A DNA stretch of 64,000 nt, taken from IMG/VR virus record IMGVR_UViG_3300028388_006015, positions 1 through 64,000 of that record; one strand, given 5' to 3'. The DNA comes from a virus. Made by a program: the position numbers and the translations under genes. The notes below the pieces were generated by a model that worked only from the letters and a program-made list of their open reading frames with translations, searched no databases and was not told the DNA's origin. Positions 8,630 through 18,360 of this stretch are shown here, piece by piece (the stretch's first letter is position 1; each line of letters opens with the position of its first letter).

Positions 8630-11600
8630 TTAAACTACAACATAATTGCAATCTTCACCTATCGAGTGAATGCAATTACAATTATTATATGTGTCATACT
8701 GTACTTTACCAAATAAAAGTAGGATTCGTCCTTCATTGCCCTTAATAGCAGAACGAACATCATCCCAAACATCAGGCCATGCTAGTATCGTTAATATTTC
8801 GTCATTAACTTGTAATGTGATAATGCCAAATTTGTCAGATCTTTTTGTTTTGCGCTGTTTAAATTCAACAATAACACCACCAACAATAGTGTTTCTGCCT
8901 ACAGAATCTTTTGATTGCAATTCATTCCAATCCATCCATGTATGTGAGTAATCACTAACAAACGCACTACTCTTGATTAATTCAAGAAAATCAATATGTC
9001 CTAAGCCGCACAATTCGCGCTGTTTCAATATCCACCAATATGGATACTGACGTCCCTCATCCTCTTTAAGATTGAAAATTTCAGGTTCGTAGCCGTAATC
9101 CATATAATAACGATAAAGAACATCCATTCTCTTTTCTGGACTCGTTACATCACACACGTCATCAAATGCTCCACAGTAAATAAGATTTTCAACGACACGC
9201 TTATTGACTTTGCGCTTCTCAACACAATCCAAGAAATCTGACAATCCAAAAAACTGTCCTCCATTAGCCTTTCTCGCATCAATTATATGTTGAGATGCTA
9301 CAGCACCAACATGCTTTATCTTATCAAAAGACCAATAGATATTATTGTGATCGTTTGTAAGGTATGTTGATTGAGACTTATTGATATCAGGTGGAAGAAC
9401 ATCAAAGTCCATATTGAGATGATTGATCTCAGATAGGTAATTAGGGATATCGTGATCTTTGGCAAATTGAAAGGCTGTTATCCAAAACTCAAGAGGGTAG
9501 TTTACTTTAAACCACTGTGAAATATAACCAGTTATCGCATAAGCTGCAGCATGAGATCTATTAAACCCATATCCTGCAAACACTTCCAACTTATTCCAAA
9601 TTTCCTCAGCCTCTTTTGCAGAACAATCATTCTTGATAGCACCCTTTATAAACTTGTCTTTGTACTCGTCCATAAGGTGCTGAATCTTCTTACCCATCGC
9701 CTTACGTACAGCATCAGCCTCACTTGCAGAAAAACCACCAAGAACGCGACATGCGCTCATAACTTGCTCTTGATATATATATAGACCGTATGTTGATTGT
9801 GTTACGCTTTTAAGCTTAAAATCATATTCCGGTTGCTCTTCGCCAAATTTACGTTTAACGTATTTAATATGAGCTCCTGTACCAATTGCACCAGGTCGAT
9901 ATAACGCGATCATTGCAATGAGATCTTCTATGTTCTGAGGCTTAACTTCAACAGAATATGACTTTAATCCTGCACTGCCAAAGTGAAAGTTATCCTCATT
10001 ATACCCTTTACTATACAGCTCATACACACGATTATCGTCAAGGGGAATGTTTTCGATATCTATTCTTTTGCCATGATTACGCTCAATAAGCTCGATAATG
10101 TTTTGAAACTTGTCTAATTGCTCAATGCCAAGAATGTCTTCTTTTAGAAAACCAGTTTTTTCTGTAAACTCTCCTTCCCATTCACTAATAAGCATGTTGC
10201 CTTCTTTTCTTAAAGGTACATACGTATATAAATCACTATCAATGTTATTGTGGTCTTTCTTGGGAACAATCAGAGTTGCACATGCATGAACGCCAACACT
10301 TTTAGGTTGATGAAGTAGATCTATAATGTCGTTAATGTATATGGCATTACTTTGCACAAATTCATACAACTGAGGCTTAGATTTCGCATTTGCAAATAAC
10401 AAGGATATCTCATTAGTTGCGCGTGAATCTTCATCGAGCATTTTAGTAAGTAACGAGCGATGTCCTGCATTAATAGATCGAATACGACCAATTTCTTGAA
10501 TCGCTGATTTGATCTGTAACGTCTGAACAGTTCCAACACTACACACATAATCAAAACCATACTTTTGTTGCATGTATGCTTTAACCTCTTCTCTTCGAGT
10601 GCCAGGAAAATCAGTGTCGATATCAGGCATAGATTTCTTAATACGAGCTTCATTGAGAAATCGCTCAAACAACAAATTGTATTTTATCGGGTCAATTTTG
10701 GTTATATTTAATAAATATGAAACAAGACAACCACCTGCACTTCCTCTACCAATTCCCGTTATTATGCCATTTTGTTTACACCACATAACCAGATCCCACA
10801 GTATAAGAAAATAATCAACAAACCCTCCTTGCTTAATAATGCGCACTTCTTCTTTGAGACGAGCAATGTATTTCGGCCAATCATCTTGATCAACCTTTTG
10901 GTACAGGCCCTCTTCGAGAATACTCTTAAACAACGTATCACGATCGCCATACTGCTGTAATTGCTGCTCGTCTAACTCATACTGTGGAAGATGGAGATTT
11001 TTAGTATCGACTAAGAAATTACACGCATCAACAATCAATTGTGTATTGATGCACATTTGCTTAAATGCCTTTTGAAAAGCAATATCGTCTGTTGCTAATT
11101 CTTGTGCTTGAACGAATAAATCGTCACAGTTCTTAAAGTATTGATCGTATGACGTTTGACTAAATTTTCCGCTTATACGACTTAGTGTTTGGCGAACACC
11201 ACTATTATGATGATTGCAATAGTATATGTCGTCACACCATATAAATTCAATACGCTCTTTATGGGCGTGGTAATTCTTTGTTAATGTTGTTAGGCGTAAA
11301 CGATCATAATCGTTATTCATAAAGCGCGTCAATGTAAATTGACCATAAAACATATCAAAACTACCAACACCCTGCACTATTGTATCAAAACTATGTTCGC
11401 GATCACTCATATTGATAATACACGCCAATCCTTTGCTGTATTGAGTGCTAAGATCTTGCCAATTAATGCTACGCACCTCATCATCTGTAATGTTAAGTTT
11501 ATGGCTAATCTTGAGAAGGTTTTGCCAACCATCTTCGTTAAGAGCATATACTTTAACACCATCAACATATTCATCAAAATCAACATCAACACTCATGCCA

Positions 11601-12097
11601 ATTATTGGCTTTATGTTGTGTTTAAGACATTGTAATTGAAAATCAACAACACCACGCAAAGTATGATGTTCTGCAATGCCAAGTGCACTAATTCCTAAAA
11701 ATTTTGCTTTGCGACAATAATCAGAATACTCTCCACTACCACTCAAGATCTCATACTTGCCATGAATAGCGAGTGGACTGTAATCTAAAACAATGCCTTG
11801 ATCTGAAACACCGATATATAAGAAATCATTAAACTGGGGATGAATATCGTCGCACGAATTATAGTAAAATCGCCTACCAAAGTGATAAACAAAAAAATGT
11901 GGATCGAACTTACGAGCCAAAATGATCTCCGAAGCACTAAGTGAAAGTTGAAAGTCATCGTTGATGAGAAACGACTTATCCTCTAGTAACAGAAAAGTGT
12001 GATCGGTTCCTTCAACACCAAACACTCTGCCATCTGCTGCTATTGGATAAATGCTAATCTTATTGTTATAACACCATTGATCGAACGCCTCACTCAT
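8630..12097 (-). CDS. dnaE: DNA polymerase III alpha subunit (DnaE type)
   Basis: 1155 aa, C-family replicative polymerase. The PHP domain starts only at about residue 112 ('HGKYEILSGSG', 'ALGIAEHHTLRG', 'IKPIIGMSVDV'), so there is an extra N-terminal domain of about 110 residues. Key PHP metal ligands are altered, suggesting no proofreading activity there. The catalytic palm has 'GIGRGSAGG' (450-456) and 'PDIDTDF' (491-497, paired aspartates). The finger/HhH region contains 'GYGFNRSHAAAYAITGY', and a C-terminal OB-fold begins near 'NTIVGGVIVEFKQRKT'. Proofreading could be supplied by the DnaQ-like exonuclease encoded at 22.7 kb. No clamp or clamp loader was recognised, so host subunits may be used. 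Confidence 0.95.
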   Translation of the reverse strand: MSEAFDQWCYNNKISIYPIAADGRVFGVEGTDHTFLLLEDKSFLINDDFQLSLSASEIILARKFDPHFFVYHFGRRFYYNSCDDIHPQFNDFLYIGVSDQGIVLDYSPLAIHGKYEILSGSGEYSDYCRKAKFLGISALGIAEHHTLRGVVDFQLQCLKHNIKPIIGMSVDVDFDEYVDGVKVYALNEDGWQNLLKISHKLNITDDEVRSINWQDLSTQYSKGLACIINMSDREHSFDTIVQGVGSFDMFYGQFTLTRFMNNDYDRLRLTTLTKNYHAHKERIEFIWCDDIYYCNHHNSGVRQTLSRISGKFSQTSYDQYFKNCDDLFVQAQELATDDIAFQKAFKQMCINTQLIVDACNFLVDTKNLHLPQYELDEQQLQQYGDRDTLFKSILEEGLYQKVDQDDWPKYIARLKEEVRIIKQGGFVDYFLILWDLVMWCKQNGIITGIGRGSAGGCLVSYLLNITKIDPIKYNLLFERFLNEARIKKSMPDIDTDFPGTRREEVKAYMQQKYGFDYVCSVGTVQTLQIKSAIQEIGRIRSINAGHRSLLTKMLDEDSRATNEISLLFANAKSKPQLYEFVQSNAIYINDIIDLLHQPKSVGVHACATLIVPKKDHNNIDSDLYTYVPLRKEGNMLISEWEGEFTEKTGFLKEDILGIEQLDKFQNIIELIERNHGKRIDIENIPLDDNRVYELYSKGYNEDNFHFGSAGLKSYSVEVKPQNIEDLIAMIALYRPGAIGTGAHIKYVKRKFGEEQPEYDFKLKSVTQSTYGLYIYQEQVMSACRVLGGFSASEADAVRKAMGKKIQHLMDEYKDKFIKGAIKNDCSAKEAEEIWNKLEVFAGYGFNRSHAAAYAITGYISQWFKVNYPLEFWITAFQFAKDHDIPNYLSEINHLNMDFDVLPPDINKSQSTYLTNDHNNIYWSFDKIKHVGAVASQHIIDARKANGGQFFGLSDFLDCVEKRKVNKRVVENLIYCGAFDDVCDVTSPEKRMDVLYRYYMDYGYEPEIFNLKEDEGRQYPYWWILKQRELCGLGHIDFLELIKSSAFVSDYSHTWMDWNELQSKDSVGRNTIVGGVIVEFKQRKTKRSDKFGIITLQVNDEILTILAWPDVWDDVRSAIKGNEGRILLLFGKVQYDTYNNCNCIHSIGEDCNYVVV

Positions 12098-12799: not shown

Positions 12800-13630
12800 C
12801 TACTTATCTGCATCTTCTTTCTCGGCTGTTTGACCAGATGCTTTTTTCGCCTCTATTACCAGCTGATACTTAGAGATTACAGAATACACGAAGCTGTAGT
12901 GAGAACCAACCATACGAGCAATTTGTGCTTTGGGATATCCCAAATCAAACAAACGCCGCATACGTTCGGACTTCTTGAGCTGAGGATCTTCAATGATGCG
13001 CTGAGCGTCTTTGGTCATTGGCTTTTCCACAACCTGACGGCCACGGGCCTTACTACCTTCACTGTCATCTTTCTTCTTGGAAGTTGTCTTCTTGACAGAA
13101 GCTTTTTTAGCTGCTTTGGTCGTAGACTCTTTTTTTGCAGGTGCCTTCTTTGTCGTTGATTTCTTGGCGGTAGGCGTCTTAGCTGCCGGTTTTTTCTTAG
13201 CAGTAGTCTTTTTTGCAGCGCCTTTTTTAGCGGGTGCTTTTTTTGCAGTGCCAATAATGTCGTCCAAAGCACTTTGTGCATCTGCTGCAGAAACAACACC
13301 TTCGTACTTATCAACGAGGTCGTCGTATTCTACTGTTTCGACAGTGCGCGAAAGATCGGTGCCTTCAGGAAGATTGTCAACGATTGTTTGCAGTTCGCCT
13401 TTAAAGCCGTCAAGTGTCAACGACTGTTCACTTTTTTGTTCGGAAGGTTGGTTGCTTTCAGGCTCTTGCTTAACGGGCTGTTCTTGTTCGGGTTGAGCGT
13501 CTTCTGAGAGCGATTCCATCAACAGAGTGCGCAACTCTTCGGCCTTTTGGCCGTTGAACTTAATTCCCACCTCTTTTGCCATCCTGATCAAGGCAGGGTA
13601 CTTTGCATTTTGAATTTCTGCTTTAGTCAT
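12800..13630 (-). CDS. Histone-H1-like lysine/alanine-rich protein with terminal DNA-binding motifs
   Basis: 276 aa with three parts. Residues 1-45 form a helix-extended-helix (SAP/Rho_N-like) motif ('YPALIRMAKEVGIKFN', 'AEELRTLLMESL'). After an acidic linker, residues about 128-200 are tandem AKKAPAKK/TTAKK repeats like eukaryotic or Bacteroidota H1-type tails. The C-terminal part ('MRRLFDLGYPKAQIARMVG', then 'YSFVYSVISKY') is a helix-turn-helix. This architecture suggests a DNA-compacting or genome-organising protein able to recognise sequence. It has its own possible promoter and a strong hairpin after it, consistent with high expression. Family identity is inferred from composition and motifs. 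Confidence 0.7.
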   Translation of the reverse strand: MTKAEIQNAKYPALIRMAKEVGIKFNGQKAEELRTLLMESLSEDAQPEQEQPVKQEPESNQPSEQKSEQSLTLDGFKGELQTIVDNLPEGTDLSRTVETVEYDDLVDKYEGVVSAADAQSALDDIIGTAKKAPAKKGAAKKTTAKKKPAAKTPTAKKSTTKKAPAKKESTTKAAKKASVKKTTSKKKDDSEGSKARGRQVVEKPMTKDAQRIIEDPQLKKSERMRRLFDLGYPKAQIARMVGSHYSFVYSVISKYQLVIEAKKASGQTAEKEDADK

Positions 13631-13718: not shown

Positions 13719-14561
13719 TTAATCCAGGGACGTGTTCTGGAGAATTTTTTGTATCCACTTGATATTCTTCTTAACGTTACTTTCAAAATGCAAGTCTGGT
13801 TGAGCTGCGTAAAAGTCGACCTCACGAGCAATTTTGCCATTAACTAAGCCTCTCGCACTGTTGTCAAATGTAATACCATTATATGCATGCCATATCGCAG
13901 TACTAGAGTCGTTGCTATATGCAAGGCGCAACTTTTTCATTAATAATAATTCTCTAGGGTCACCACATCCTAAAAAGTGATGACGTGCATTAACGACTGT
14001 AAGATGGTTTTGTTGAAGATGAATCGTAGCAAATGTGCGATTTAGTGAAATATCTTTAGTTCCAGTTAATGATTGAAATGCATTAGGAATACCAAGAATA
14101 CTCATCCCGACCCACCAAAGGCGAAAATCGTTAGTAGAGGCTGCCTGTTGATACAATATACTTTTGTAACACATAATCCATCCTCTCCAGTCCCCTATTT
14201 CAGATTGAGGTACGCCCATTAAAGCAACACTATCAGGAAGATTATGTTCTTTCCATACCAGCGCGTCAGAAAATGCTTCTGCTGTCTTCTGCCAATTATC
14301 TCCCGGATAGTCTGGAGCTACAATAACATTTGGTATGATCGCTGCTTTTTCAAGCTTAGCCCATATATGTTCAAGGCTCATTGGAGAACCATTTTCAAAA
14401 GCACCATTATCAACAATAATGAAATCACCTCTTTCACTCTTATCGCGATAAAAGTCGCAATATTTCTTATTGTCAAGAAGATGTGCGAGTAATAAGTGAA
14501 AATCACTGTTTTGAGGTACGTAATCTAATAATGGAATTGGAGCAATATATGCATGCTTCAT
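13719..14561 (-). CDS. dpdA: DpdA-like DNA 7-deazaguanine transglycosylase
   Basis: 280 aa, related to tRNA-guanine transglycosylases. Visible family marks: 'IVDNGAFENG' (Asp51 region), 'VIVAPDYPGD' (candidate catalytic Asp), 'HHFLGCGDPRELLL' (194-206, the TGT glycine loop) and 'AYNGITFDNSARG'. It lacks the zinc-binding C-terminal region of tRNA TGT and is short, like phage DpdA proteins. The family exchanges guanine in DNA for a 7-deazaguanine base made by the que genes, protecting phage DNA from restriction. It is the last gene of the queD-queE-folE run and overlaps the P-loop kinase gene by 4 nt. Confidence 0.8.
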   Translation of the reverse strand: MKHAYIAPIPLLDYVPQNSDFHLLLAHLLDNKKYCDFYRDKSERGDFIIVDNGAFENGSPMSLEHIWAKLEKAAIIPNVIVAPDYPGDNWQKTAEAFSDALVWKEHNLPDSVALMGVPQSEIGDWRGWIMCYKSILYQQAASTNDFRLWWVGMSILGIPNAFQSLTGTKDISLNRTFATIHLQQNHLTVVNARHHFLGCGDPRELLLMKKLRLAYSNDSSTAIWHAYNGITFDNSARGLVNGKIAREVDFYAAQPDLHFESNVKKNIKWIQKILQNTSLD

Positions 14562-15049
14562 TGTGATTGCATTTTATTGATAATGAATTGTTTTACTTTA
14601 GTCAAACCAAGCTCATTGTCTCTTTCGTTCGCCTTATCAAAATTCTCAATAGACGTCTGTCCGTTCTTATCACTCTGTTGACGAAATCGCTCATATCGCT
14701 CTTCATAAGGAGCCTCTATCCATATATATGTGCAATTTGGTAAGTCTTGAATCAAAGACAGTTGTCTTGGTCCAATAACTAATACAAGAATATTAATGTT
14801 AAGCGATATAGACTGATCGTAAAAATCTGCAACGCGATTGTGAATGGTTTGTTTAATCGCCTGTTCGAGATGAGCACTATCTTGAAGATCTGAACGCTTA
14901 TCGGAGTTCAGAAGATTTCTTACAATCATTGAAATCTCAATAATGCCAATGAAATCGTATACTCCGTTAAGGCTCTGTTCTGCTATTGTTGCGGCAAGTG
15001 TGCTTTTTCCACTACACAACTTACCGGCTATTACCATTGTTGCTATCAT
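14558..15049 (-). CDS. P-loop nucleoside/nucleotide kinase-like protein
   Basis: 163 aa from ATG 15049, which overlaps the stop of the preceding gene (TAATG). A longer frame to 15100 would overlap that gene more. Walker A is 'GKLCSGKST' (9-17), a probable Walker B/strand is 'INILVLVIGPRQLSLI', and an LID-like region is 'EAPYEERYERFRQQSD'. This matches the adenylate/thymidylate/deoxynucleoside monophosphate kinase superfamily. In most phages it would phosphorylate dNMPs. Its placement directly before dpdA, with coupled translation, raises a possible role in deazaguanine modification or in precursor supply. Confidence 0.7.
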   Translation of the reverse strand: MIATMVIAGKLCSGKSTLAATIAEQSLNGVYDFIGIIEISMIVRNLLNSDKRSDLQDSAHLEQAIKQTIHNRVADFYDQSISLNINILVLVIGPRQLSLIQDLPNCTYIWIEAPYEERYERFRQQSDKNGQTSIENFDKANERDNELGLTKVKQFIINKMQSQ

Positions 15050-15399
15050 TACTGTCTCATTACTTTTGCGCCATTTTCTCCGTCCTCGAGTACAGTGCAA
15101 GATTCTAAATTAAAATCCTTGACCAGCAAACGAGCAATCATCTCGCAACTCATATTGCCAAAGTCCAACATTGCATATGTTGGCGACATATATGTTATTT
15201 CAAGATAGTCACGCACTGCACGTTTAAATAGAATAATCTCGATGTCTCGATCGTCATGCGTCACGCTCTTTTCGCACGTAATGTGAAATATATGACGATG
15301 AGGGTATTCAAGAAACTGAACTGTGACATCAAACTGACCTGCGTCCGGCCAACAATGAATTCCTTCTACCTGAAGATTGATAATTATGTTAACTCTCAT
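15049..15399 (-). CDS. Conserved protein in the deazaguanine cluster, possible tunnelling-fold relative
   Basis: 116 aa, not firmly recognised. It has a strongly patterned core: 'FLEYPHRHIFHITCEKSV', 'HDDRDIEIILFKRAV', 'LDFGNMSCEMIARLL', 'VLEDGENGA'. The His-rich 'HRHIFHI' strand followed by a long helix and the C-terminal Glu-Asp-Gly-Glu-Asn are reminiscent of small T-fold (QueD/PTPS-like) enzymes, but this is only a resemblance. Genes overlap on both sides (TAATG with the kinase, ATGA with the dUTPase-family gene). Position inside queD-queE-folE-dpdA makes a role in base synthesis or tailoring plausible. Confidence 0.5.
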   Translation of the reverse strand: MRVNIIINLQVEGIHCWPDAGQFDVTVQFLEYPHRHIFHITCEKSVTHDDRDIEIILFKRAVRDYLEITYMSPTYAMLDFGNMSCEMIARLLVKDFNLESCTVLEDGENGAKVMRQ

Positions 15400-16061
15400 G
15401 CTTTGCGTTGTTTGTCGTTTTGATAGGAAGATCCCTTAGATTCGTTACCGTATAAGTCTCCATCCTGAACAGGATTAACTGAATGAGCGAGAATTTGACC
15501 GAGACGAGCATCTTTTTGAATGATCACACTTCCATTTAACACATGAAACACAGTGCCCATTTGTTCAGTCTCGAATCCTGGATCGAATACTGCAGAAACG
15601 AGAAGACATGAACCGCGCAACATCGTTGATCTATGACGAATTTCAAGCCATGTGTCTGCAGGAATCTGACAGCCTTCATTGAATGTAATGTGATAAGAAC
15701 CAGGTTTCAATCTCCAACAAATACCATACTCGTCATGCATAAAAGTAGCACATTCGCGAAGAGGACGAAGATACTTTTTCTCAAAGCCAACAACAAGTTC
15801 AATATCTTCTCCATCAGCGGCAGTAAAAACTTCCTGTTCTATTTTAGCAACAGTAAGATCAATACCAACTTGTTGAATTTGTTTGTCGAGACGAGAAACA
15901 ATATCAACAAAGTCTTTGCGGTCTTGATCGGTCATGTCTTCTTTGAGAAGAAGTTGAGGAAGGTTGGTAATGATGCCACTTTCGTATAGATCGCGACCAT
16001 TCATCGTTGTTAATGGATAGTTAACAGCGGAATACGGAAAAATATCTTGCAAATGAATCAT
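15396..16061 (-). CDS. dCTP deaminase / dUTPase family enzyme
   Basis: 221 aa. Trimeric dUTPase/dCTP-deaminase motifs appear in order: 'QVGIDLTV' (65-71), 'LKPGSYHITFNEGCQIPAD', 'IRHRSTMLRG' (the RSS-like motif, 141-150), 'AVFDPGFE' (the D-x-G-(W/F) motif) and 'ARLGQILAHS'; the C-terminus 'GNESKGSSYQ' resembles the flexible arm. The N-terminal 60 residues are an additional segment. It would lower dUTP or convert dCTP to dUTP/dUMP for dTTP synthesis. I cannot tell deaminase from pure dUTPase by eye because the diagnostic Glu is not obvious. It lies between folE and the kinase. Confidence 0.75.
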   Translation of the reverse strand: MIHLQDIFPYSAVNYPLTTMNGRDLYESGIITNLPQLLLKEDMTDQDRKDFVDIVSRLDKQIQQVGIDLTVAKIEQEVFTAADGEDIELVVGFEKKYLRPLRECATFMHDEYGICWRLKPGSYHITFNEGCQIPADTWLEIRHRSTMLRGSCLLVSAVFDPGFETEQMGTVFHVLNGSVIIQKDARLGQILAHSVNPVQDGDLYGNESKGSSYQNDKQRKA

Positions 16062-16093
16062 AAGATTGTGGTTTTTGCTAAAATTAATACTTT

Positions 16094-16738
16094 TTATAAT
16101 GATTTGCTAATCAAACTGAAGAATTCAACTCTCGTACCAACTTCGTTTGTGTGAAAGTACCCTGAAAGCTGTGACGTGCGCATCAAACTGTCGTGACGAA
16201 CACCTCTACAACCAACACATTGATGTTTGGCTTCAATAACTACAGCAACTCCTCTGTTGCCTGTACACTTTTTATTTACAAAATCGTGCACTTGTTTCGT
16301 TAACGATTCTTGAACATTGGGCCTACGAGCAAACCAATCAACGATGCGATTGAGTTTAGAGAGACCAACCATACGATCGTCCACATTTTTGCCAGGAATA
16401 TATGCTACATGAGCTACACCAATAAATGGCAAATTGTGATGAGCACACATACTGTGAACAGGAATATTGCATTGAATAATCTGACCAGTGTATCGCTCTT
16501 CGTTAGGGAATGCTGTAATTTTAGGCTCTTGTGAAAAACATCCCACTGCAAGATCATTAAACCACGCTTTTGCTACACGTAATGGTGTGTCTCGCATATG
16601 TGGATCGTATTGCCAATCAAAACCCAAAGCAGTTAAGAATTTACCATAGTGTTTTGCAGCCAAATGTGTGCGAGTTTCTATTTCAGCTTCAGTCAAAGGA
16701 TTGTTTTGATTGTGATAAATCTTTCTATCTAAGCTCAT
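16094..16738 (-). CDS. folE: GTP cyclohydrolase I (FolE type)
   Basis: 214 aa from ATG 16738; the longer frame to 16825 overlaps the preceding gene and is rejected. Zinc ligands are in 'HSMCAHHNLPFIG' (Cys98, His101) and 'HQCVGCRGV' (Cys174/Cys177). The active-site helix is 'GLSKLNRIVDWFARRP', and 'RHDSLMRTS' ends the core. It converts GTP to dihydroneopterin triphosphate, the first step towards 7-deazaguanines. With QueD and QueE in the same run it supplies the modified base for DpdA rather than folate. The length matches bacterial type IA enzymes (about 200-220 aa). Confidence 0.93.
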   Translation of the reverse strand: MSLDRKIYHNQNNPLTEAEIETRTHLAAKHYGKFLTALGFDWQYDPHMRDTPLRVAKAWFNDLAVGCFSQEPKITAFPNEERYTGQIIQCNIPVHSMCAHHNLPFIGVAHVAYIPGKNVDDRMVGLSKLNRIVDWFARRPNVQESLTKQVHDFVNKKCTGNRGVAVVIEAKHQCVGCRGVRHDSLMRTSQLSGYFHTNEVGTRVEFFSLISKSL

Positions 16739-16752
16739 AAGACTTTTTTTTG

Positions 16753-17016
16753 TTAATGATAAGGTTGACAGTAAGTTATTGTAATTTGTTCTCGATAATT
16801 CGCGTAATATTCTTTTATTGCACACAATTCGTGAATAATCTCCTGTTCAGAAGGCATTTGTGGAAAGAATAATTGCTCCTGATGCTCTCTAGGAAGAGGG
16901 AGCATATTGATTTGCAACTTGATTAAAAATTTGCAATTGTGATGGGTGTTACCTTCATCTTCCGGATTAATATCGGAATATCCCAAATGCCTTTTATAGA
17001 GTTCTTCTTTACTCAC
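16753..17016 (-). CDS. Small protein of unknown function between queE and folE
   Basis: 87 aa, overlapping the queE stop by 4 nt (ATGA), so probably translated by coupling. The N-terminus 'YKRHLGYSDINPEDEGN' is followed by 'HHNCKFLIKLQI' and a Pro/Gln-rich middle. The C-terminal 'CAIKEYYANYREQI' is helical. A single cysteine pair is too far apart for an obvious zinc site. Its only clue to function is its position inside the deazaguanine cluster. Confidence 0.5.
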   Translation of the reverse strand: MSKEELYKRHLGYSDINPEDEGNTHHNCKFLIKLQINMLPLPREHQEQLFFPQMPSEQEIIHELCAIKEYYANYREQITITYCQPYH

Positions 17017-17795
17017 ACCTCTCTTTTATTGCCGTGAATAATAATGTGCAAACGATCTGTGTAATTGTATCCACGCTCAATGCAGATCTGTTCAAGCCAT
17101 TGACGTGATTGTTCAAGTTTTTCATTCACATCACCTGCAGGCATAAGCCAACAATGATTTGCAGGTATATTAAGAACGACACGAATATGTTCAAACTCTT
17201 TAAGGGAGTCATCATCCTCAATAACCGGTTTAACTTGATAATCTTTACAACCACAACGAATCCATGATTTCATTGCGTCATAATTGCTACGCCATTTATT
17301 GTGACGATCTACGTCTTTCTGAGTTACCTTGCGACCAATCTCTGTAATAAAACTATCAACGACAGGTACAGAGTTGCTAAGCTTAGGCGAAAGAGAGAGT
17401 AAATCAATTCGATGAGATAAACGAGTGCCAAACCATTCGATCCATTCAGAACCTTCAGTTTCGAGTGTAATGTGACTGTCAGAAACACGCCACCGAATAA
17501 ACTCAACAACTTGTGGTAAAATTGTCTTTTGAAGTGTAGGACCTCCTCCAGTAATTATAAAGTGCTTGATATGCTGATTTTCACTAATTAAAGCAGCAAT
17601 GCGCTCGTACGTCCAAGATCCCTTTTCTGGTTTCCATGAAGAATACCAAGTATCACAAACACTATTTGCGAATTGACATCTCAATCGACAACCGACAAAA
17701 CGAATCATAATGCTTGGTGTTCCTATAAGTTTTCCTTCACCCTGCAAACAAGTGTACACCTCATTTATTGGCAGTGGTTTACTTTCTGTCATCAT
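17013..17795 (-). CDS. queE: 7-carboxy-7-deazaguanine synthase (QueE, radical SAM)
   Basis: 260 aa from the first ATG of an ATG-ATG pair at 17795; a farther start at 17822 would extend the overlap with queD to 44 nt. The iron-sulphur cysteines are in 'GCRLRCQFANSVCDTWYSSW' (Cys36, Cys40, Cys47), a CX3CX6C spacing rather than the simple CX3CX2C. The SAM motif is 'FIITGGGPTLQK', and the substrate-binding 'LQGEGKLIGTPS' is at the N-terminus. It rearranges carboxytetrahydropterin to 7-carboxy-7-deazaguanine (CDG). Without a QueC in the window, CDG may be the end product made by phage enzymes. Confidence 0.9.
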   Translation of the reverse strand: MMTESKPLPINEVYTCLQGEGKLIGTPSIMIRFVGCRLRCQFANSVCDTWYSSWKPEKGSWTYERIAALISENQHIKHFIITGGGPTLQKTILPQVVEFIRWRVSDSHITLETEGSEWIEWFGTRLSHRIDLLSLSPKLSNSVPVVDSFITEIGRKVTQKDVDRHNKWRSNYDAMKSWIRCGCKDYQVKPVIEDDDSLKEFEHIRVVLNIPANHCWLMPAGDVNEKLEQSRQWLEQICIERGYNYTDRLHIIIHGNKREV

Positions 17796-18360
17796 ATTCG
17801 ACAATTCCTTTTTCTTTGGCATATTCTAATATGTGTTTGCTGTTATATTCACGAAAATTCAATCGTTCCGCATGATCAATGTCATTGGTTCGCACTATTG
17901 TATAGCACTTAGGAGTTTCATACAAAGTTACGGCAGTTGGTATGAGTCCTTTATATTCAAGAAATAACAATTCCATGGCAAGTAAAATCTCCTTTGCTAT
18001 GTTCTCTACAGTTGGATTGCAATATTTCAATCCTGTTCGTGTAAAAGGCTGCTCGTTAGGATCTTGTCTGCCATTTAAACTCATAACCCATGCTTTAGAT
18101 CCGAGCTTTTTGCACATATCCAAGATCTCCTCGTCGTGCGGATTAGCAATAAATCCGTGATCTAGTAAATCGTCGATCCATTGCATACCAACGCGCTTAA
18201 TTTCTTTAAAATCAATCGCATAGCCGATCTCTGCCATTGACGAGAATGAGAAGTGGACGTGACAAATGTATGTATGTCCGTGGATGTTGAAACATTTCAT
18301 CTTTTCATTCATCACTCTATGTCCACTATCAAATGTGGTTATTCTAACAATCTCTTGCAT
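17779..18360 (-). CDS. queD: 6-carboxy-tetrahydropterin synthase (QueD)
   Basis: 193 aa. Zinc histidines lie in 'FDSGHRV' (His14) and 'CFNIHGHTY' (His27, His29), with the catalytic Cys23 four residues before the first of these. Other marks are 'AIDFKEIK', 'LLDHGFIANPHDEE', 'NPTVENIAKEI' and the C-terminal 'LYETPKCYT'. It converts dihydroneopterin triphosphate to carboxytetrahydropterin, the substrate of QueE. It is longer than typical QueD (about 120-140 aa) because of an insert around residues 85-115 and a C-terminal helix. It starts at the stop base of the primase gene, linking modification to replication expression. Confidence 0.92.
   Translation of the reverse strand: MQEIVRITTFDSGHRVMNEKMKCFNIHGHTYICHVHFSFSSMAEIGYAIDFKEIKRVGMQWIDDLLDHGFIANPHDEEILDMCKKLGSKAWVMSLNGRQDPNEQPFTRTGLKYCNPTVENIAKEILLAMELLFLEYKGLIPTAVTLYETPKCYTIVRTNDIDHAERLNFREYNSKHILEYAKEKGIVEYDDRK

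Follow-up and report, generated by a model that had tools for sequence, protein, structure and literature searches.

A QueC-less phage operon predicted to supply a 7-deazaguanine derived from 7-carboxy-7-deazaguanine for DNA modification

A probable 7-deazaguanine operon among replication genes

The stretch of DNA analysed here (the window) comprises bases 1-64000 of the 75,147-base viral record IMGVR_UViG_3300028388_006015, which is possibly incomplete because it is classed as linear. Genes for QueD, QueE, FolE and a DpdA-like guanine transglycosylase are located in a single minus-strand operon of this window, flanked by genes for a primase/helicase and a DnaE-type DNA polymerase, the latter downstream of the cassette and in the same direction (Table 1). 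Family matches thus bear out the first-pass annotation, which had placed these four genes together inside a replication operon. It had also described them as contiguous, with overlapping starts and stops. Overlaps are indeed present at 18360 (with the upstream primase gene), 17779-17822, 17013-17016 and 15396-15399, along with coupled junctions at 15051-15047 (TAATG) and 14561-14558 (ATGA). Strict contiguity did not hold, as four further genes are interspersed: an open reading frame (ORF) of 87 amino acids (aa), a gene of the DCD/dUTPase fold (DCD), the gene for a 116-aa protein (p116) and a P-loop kinase gene. The pyrophosphatase candidate DCD, p116 and the kinase had been overlooked, and it is the interspersed genes that prove informative.

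The 87-aa ORF had no convincing family match in Pfam or PHROG and no counterpart in related loci. QueE of the window shares 38-40% identity with the QueE proteins of Cellulophaga phage phiST and Flavobacterium phage immuto. The start of the kinase gene is better set at the ATG that is coupled to the stop of p116 (TAATG). No near match at the DNA level was found among known phages.

Table 1. Genes of the cassette and the adjoining polymerase gene (positions in the window)
Feature	Position	Strand	Evidence
QueD (6-carboxytetrahydropterin synthase)	17779..18360	-	PF01242 2e-26; phrog_2389 1e-26; CxxxHGH motif in translation
QueE (7-carboxy-7-deazaguanine synthase, radical SAM)	17013..17822	-	phrog_2076 4e-41, full length
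87-aa ORF	16753..17016	-	no assigned function
FolE (GTP cyclohydrolase I)	16094..16825	-	PF01227 2e-45; phrog_2197 6e-56
DCD/dUTPase-fold protein (DCD)	15396..16061	-	PF22769 7e-9
p116, 116-aa QueD-fold protein	15049..15399	-	phrog_17812 1e-24
P-loop nucleotide-kinase-like protein	14558..15049	-	AAA_18 4e-6 (slightly below the curated Pfam cut-off); phrog_1815 guanylate kinase 4e-5; P-loop GKLCSGKST
DpdA-like guanine transglycosylase, phiST/immuto type	13719..14561	-	AlphaFold2 model, Foldseek, hhalign
DnaE-type DNA polymerase (context gene outside the cassette)	8630..12097	-	ORF; similar to phiST DNA polymerase III alpha genes

QueC is absent and p116 occurs in its place

By the known chemistry of their families, FolE, QueD and QueE would convert GTP through dihydroneopterin triphosphate (H2NTP) and 6-carboxytetrahydropterin (CPH4) to 7-carboxy-7-deazaguanine (CDG). 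QueC, which turns CDG into 7-cyano-7-deazaguanine (preQ0), had been noted as missing from the window. A search with PF06508 was negative for the window and for the entire 75,147-base record, which rules out a QueC hidden elsewhere in the phage over that length; 12 of 14 control genomes gave a QueC match in the same search, as did phages that carry the gene. QueC was missing in 29 of the 30 related cassette records tested, and complete relatives such as phiST, MA9V-3 and RHph_I1_18 also lack it. Its absence is a conserved trait of the cassette, and because of it the record cannot be filed with the classical clusters for preQ0 and 7-formamidino-7-deazaguanine (G+).

The distributions of p116 and QueC were compared across 23 records: that of the window itself plus phage isolates retrieved by way of p116, DpdA or QueE. 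p116 was present in 13 of these, mostly selected for having it (this phage, phiST, D479, Bakedbeans, RHph_I1_18, Ahp1, ACP17, Paride, BUCT-ZZ01, MA9V-3, Roos, Phosso and X1), and full-length QueC in exactly the other ten (phi38:2, immuto, ChristophMerian, Dp-1, nt-1, Holeinone, CP20, HCTV-16, BSTP5 and HD01), the informative part being the lack of QueC in the former and its presence in all QueE phages without p116. Given this exclusivity, p116 is most simply read, from gene content, as an alternative consumer of CDG, and very likely acts on CDG in the place of QueC. The conserved absence of QueC and the occurrence of p116 where QueC does not occur support the earlier suggestion that the delivered base is CDG or a CDG derivative and not preQ0. 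The same replacement pattern disfavours its alternative, supply through a host QueC.

Two of the p116 records carry further genes of interest. Phage D479 encodes a QueC-like protein of 268 aa (locus L002, record OZ195776.1 near 153872), and in Xanthomonas phage X1 a gene of the PAPS-reductase family adjoins FolE (L154:1837-2370). Both proteins are possible second routes for handling CDG.

p116 is a predicted QueD-fold protein without the QueD catalytic motif

The AlphaFold2 model of p116 (mean predicted local distance difference test score, pLDDT, 97.3) matched Escherichia coli QueD (Foldseek E 7e-5). A profile of 45 members found the 6-pyruvoyltetrahydropterin synthase 2dj6 (E 0.0013), with the zinc-binding histidines and the ring-binding glutamate aligned. 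The catalytic Asp-His motif of QueD was absent across the 45-sequence alignment. Because this motif is missing, p116 is classed, on model and alignment, as a tunnelling-fold (T-fold) protein with zinc-binding histidines that is not a QueD. Perhaps it decarboxylates CDG to 7-deazaguanine, an activity that would fit the modelled fold.

At loci L134, L135, L136, L153, L173 and most of L086-L133, p116 was found alongside glycosyltransferases and a DpdA of another family, either phrog_10773 or a 294-aa type resembling queuine transferases; the large phages Paride, ACP17 and Phosso are included. This arrangement suggests a glycosylated 7-deazaguanine in those phages. A homologue with no evident phage context is present in the chromosome of Paenibacillus polymyxa ISL-58 (L174:66-12360), in surroundings that resemble a natural-product gene cluster (FolE, an NDK domain, a radical SAM-SPASM protein, a carbamoyltransferase, an NTP transferase and a PLP decarboxylase). 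Contigs binned as archaeal also carry p116 (L156, L159, L161, L169, L171, L172 and L175; Nitrosopelagicus, Heimdallarchaeota, Nitrosotalea, Methanosarcinales and others) and probably represent viruses of archaea or phage contigs that were binned wrongly. As for QueD itself, the QueD-like ORFs of many relatives (L001, L052, L091, L004, L064 and others) have CxxLHGY for CxxxHGH and so have lost one expected zinc ligand; QueD of the window retains HGH.

The DpdA-like protein belongs to a phiST/immuto-type subfamily

The DpdA-like protein had no Pfam family match and no match by sequence in the Protein Data Bank (PDB), and fold search alone succeeded. Relatives were found in nine phage records by tblastn, phiST among them, and 340 in a scan of viral contigs. 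The AlphaFold2 model built from 39 related sequences (mean pLDDT 94.8) matched tRNA-guanine transglycosylases (TGTs; Foldseek E 3e-8), which points to a TGT-type TIM barrel. Residues D51, D84, Q119, G152, H195 and D218 are invariant in the 39 sequences; from the motifs, we take them to correspond to the TGT active site, with its catalytic Asp pair and base-recognition residues.

In hhalign comparisons the window protein matched the annotated DNA guanine transglycosylase of immuto at 99.7% probability, as against 18% for the DpdA of phi38:2. Judged by these profiles, it is a member of a phiST/immuto-type subfamily and not of the phi38:2 type. In the tree, the branches leading to immuto and L107 are long, and the grouping of the two is unreliable. 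DpdA proteins of this subfamily are acidic, with a median isoelectric point of 5.4 compared with 9.0 for the other p116-linked DpdAs.

Pyrophosphatase and kinase genes accompany this DpdA type

Loci of at least 10 kb were sorted into 46 with a phiST/immuto-type DpdA and 27 with p116 but another DpdA. An NTP pyrophosphatase was present in all 46 of the former (45 DCD, one MazG) and none of the 27, and a recognised nucleotide kinase in 15 of 46 against none of 27, although these counts overstate independence, since the loci are mutually related and no fewer than six changes on the tree are required to account for the kinase labels. FolE or FolE2 was found in 41 of the 46 loci, and p116 in 43. 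The slot of DCD is occupied by MazG in phiST, and immuto has a MazG-like protein with an AAA_28 kinase; no MazG (PF03819) or PRA-PH (PF01503) pyrophosphatase was found elsewhere in the window phage. Deoxynucleotide monophosphate kinases of the T4 gp1 type lie next to DpdA or one gene off in D479, Ahp1 and L050. Fusions of kinase with p116 and of FolE with kinase were seen (L104, L012). A marine group has, fused to DpdA or directly behind it, a DUF3310 protein with a relationship to phage nucleotide-kinase domains. A phosphoribosyltransferase, absent from this phage, was rejected as a marker of a nucleotide route because it is present in both DpdA classes.

DCD retains the catalytic pyrophosphatase Asp, that of dUTPase motif 3. 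The Glu that is catalytic in dCTP deaminase is missing, the corresponding residue of 4xjc (LTLELF) being aligned to Thr/Val in the DCD profile. From these residues and its link to this DpdA type, DCD is proposed to be a dGTP (or other dNTP) pyrophosphatase and not a deaminase; the P-loop protein of the window is likewise proposed, from its family matches and P-loop, to be a (d)NMP kinase. A canonical dUTPase is encoded besides the DpdA-linked DCD in four genomes, and DCD is therefore not simply the dUTPase there. The short base-recognition hairpin of DCD (16 residues, compared with 18-19 in canonical dUTPases) was considered as a sign of purine specificity and dropped, because the archaeal-type dUTPase 9w59 and the deaminase 9ln0 share it.

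Proposed pathway and alternatives

The gene content and the structural models make it fairly probable that the operon serves to replace DNA guanine with a CDG-derived 7-deazaguanine, p116 standing in for QueC; if so, the chances are roughly balanced that the exchange takes place at the precursor level. Downstream of QueE, p116 would carry out the CDG-consuming step instead of QueC, as the comparison of records supports. With less certainty, this step would be a decarboxylation to 7-deazaguanine, which DpdA would then exchange for guanine. A pyrophosphatase, a base-changing enzyme, a kinase and a polymerase together follow the logic of precursor replacement, and exchange on dGMP is therefore proposed. 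DCD (MazG in some relatives) would turn dGTP into dGMP, DpdA would exchange the base on dGMP, the kinase would rephosphorylate the product, and the DnaE-type polymerase would use the modified dNTP. That DpdA of the phiST/immuto type acts on dGMP, before replication, is suggested by analogy, by the pyrophosphatase and kinase genes linked to it, by the canonical dUTPases beside DCD in four genomes and by its acidic charge, and falls somewhat short of an even chance. The complete scheme is put forward tentatively: DpdA as a mononucleotide guanine transglycosylase working with a DCD/MazG dGTP pyrophosphatase and a kinase, p116 as a CDG decarboxylase, and total replacement of guanine before replication.

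Several points weigh against this proposal. DpdA-mediated insertion has been placed after replication, in DNA (PMC6884629, PMC12707154). The closest PDB entry to the DpdA-linked DCD is the archaeal-type dUTPase 9w59, and L157 has a phiST/immuto-type DpdA without a recognised pyrophosphatase (an 80-aa ORF of MazG-like appearance at this locus was rejected, as it had no family support). The acidic charge of the subfamily is weakened as proof of a non-DNA substrate, the phi38:2 DpdA being acidic too. As for p116, D479 carries it together with a partial match to QueC (33 bits), and in X1 a sub-threshold QueC match blemishes the exclusivity. In phages with other DpdAs p116 adjoins glycosyltransferases, for which plain 7-deazaguanine offers no obvious acceptor.

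Some of these points would suit a DpdA that swaps guanine in finished DNA, a possibility that rivals the proposal in its precursor-level part alone and comes close to an even chance. DCD and the kinase would then simply be the usual dNTP-pool genes found in replication operons, and released guanine would be salvaged by the phosphoribosyltransferase that some relatives have. This is the established mode of DpdA, it accords with the dUTPase likeness of DCD and the acidic phi38:2 protein, and a recognised kinase is found in only a third of the loci. It accounts less readily for the pyrophosphatase and kinases tracking the phiST/immuto-type DpdA and not the other p116-linked DpdAs, for the interchange of DCD and MazG in one slot, for the additional canonical dUTPase in the four genomes, and for the clusters of ChristophMerian and phi38:2, which are without such genes. 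A different end product, dCDG, would result if DpdA inserted CDG itself and p116 bound, delivered or otherwise altered CDG without decarboxylating it. QueE makes CDG, QueC is absent, the glycosyltransferases beside p116 in other phages suggest that the base retains a functional group, and dCDG or CDG-type bases are reportedly present in phage DNA (Cui et al. 2023). This outcome is nevertheless rather unlikely, as the replacement of QueC by a conserved T-fold protein with a zinc site suggests catalysis on CDG.

Conversion of phage-made CDG to preQ0 by a host QueC, with insertion of preQ0 by DpdA, is improbable. Many hosts encode QueC, and hosts have been discussed as suppliers of 7-deazaguanine precursors by Hutinet et al. 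(PMC6884629), but the QueC-less state is conserved over divergent phages and hosts and is coupled to p116, and immuto, which has a related DpdA and no p116, carries its own QueC. Hardly any weight is given to a role in tRNA queuosine or folate metabolism instead of DNA modification. FolE, QueD and QueE are common to those pathways, but here they share an operon with replication genes, the transglycosylase is of the DpdA and not the tRNA type, and no tRNA genes were found within the window.

Relation to known systems

The cluster is related to the phiST system. In phiST gp036-gp042 (also in phi13:1 and phi19:2) the order is likewise QueD, QueE, FolE, pyrophosphatase, p116, AAA_18 kinase, DpdA and then DnaE, and QueC is absent; phiST differs in that MazG replaces the DCD-fold gene and its DpdA is only 26% identical. 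The phiST genes are annotated as hypothetical in their record. Gene order in L104 matches that of the window. The immuto cluster combines a homologous DpdA with FolE, QueD, QueE, a MazG-like pyrophosphatase, a kinase and a phosphoribosyltransferase, but lacks p116 and additionally encodes QueC, QueF and a formyltransferase. Classical preQ0/G+ clusters (9g/CAjan type, phi38:2, nt-1, Dp-1) have FolE, QueD, QueE and a TGT-fold DpdA in common with the window; they differ in carrying QueC and DpdAs of other subfamilies, and the two that were viewed had no linked pyrophosphatase or kinase.

DpdA3 and DpdL, the latter reportedly named as a CDG decarboxylase by Cui et al. 2023, are probable equivalents of the window DpdA and p116. 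In the same work DpdA3 is reported to allow complete guanine replacement, and insertion to be post-replicative. The exclusion between p116 and QueC and the association with pyrophosphatase and kinase genes may be new; should Cui et al. 2023 already identify p116 as DpdL and the phiST DpdA as DpdA3, the present cluster would add a member to a known kind, and what is novel would be the precursor-level hypothesis.

For exchange before replication there are functional analogies. Phage T4 makes hydroxymethyl-dCMP at the precursor level, and its hydroxymethylcytosine (hmC) pathway (gp56, gp42, gp1) would work in the same way as the scheme above. The Z-cluster of S-2L (PurZ, MazZ, DatZ) similarly combines a dNTP pyrophosphatase, a base change on the dNMP, a kinase and a polymerase, MazZ turning (d)GTP into (d)GMP for PurZ (PMC8342488). 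Both differ in base and chemistry, and their central enzymes are not homologous to DpdA; precursor action in the present cluster is a proposal.

If p116 replaces QueC, many phages with a seemingly incomplete preQ0 pathway have instead another pathway that is complete, and their DNA base becomes predictable. If the exchange takes place on nucleotides, it would explain how complete guanine replacement is possible, add a further dNTP-level route of base replacement to those for hmC/hydroxymethyluracil (hmU) and 2-aminoadenine, and contradict the idea that 7-deazaguanine always enters DNA after replication. The enzymes could also serve for in vitro production of 7-deaza-dGTP or of fully G-substituted DNA.

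Additional observations on the record

The proteins encoded at 12800-13630 of the window and at L145:6569-7075 share a C-terminal helix-turn-helix-like stretch, SKSxxMRxLxDxGxxxxxIARxxGxHYSFVxSxI, and the former has an additional basic region resembling histone HC2. Outside the window, an 801-aa ORF (L145:4043-6448; record 68043-70448) resembles, as judged by eye, an ATPase split by an intein that includes a homing-endonuclease-like portion. The L145 ORFs at 1944, 3233, 7280 and 9089 have a common motif near the N-terminus, GTI(S/R)THGGKKVxKTxxGWK.

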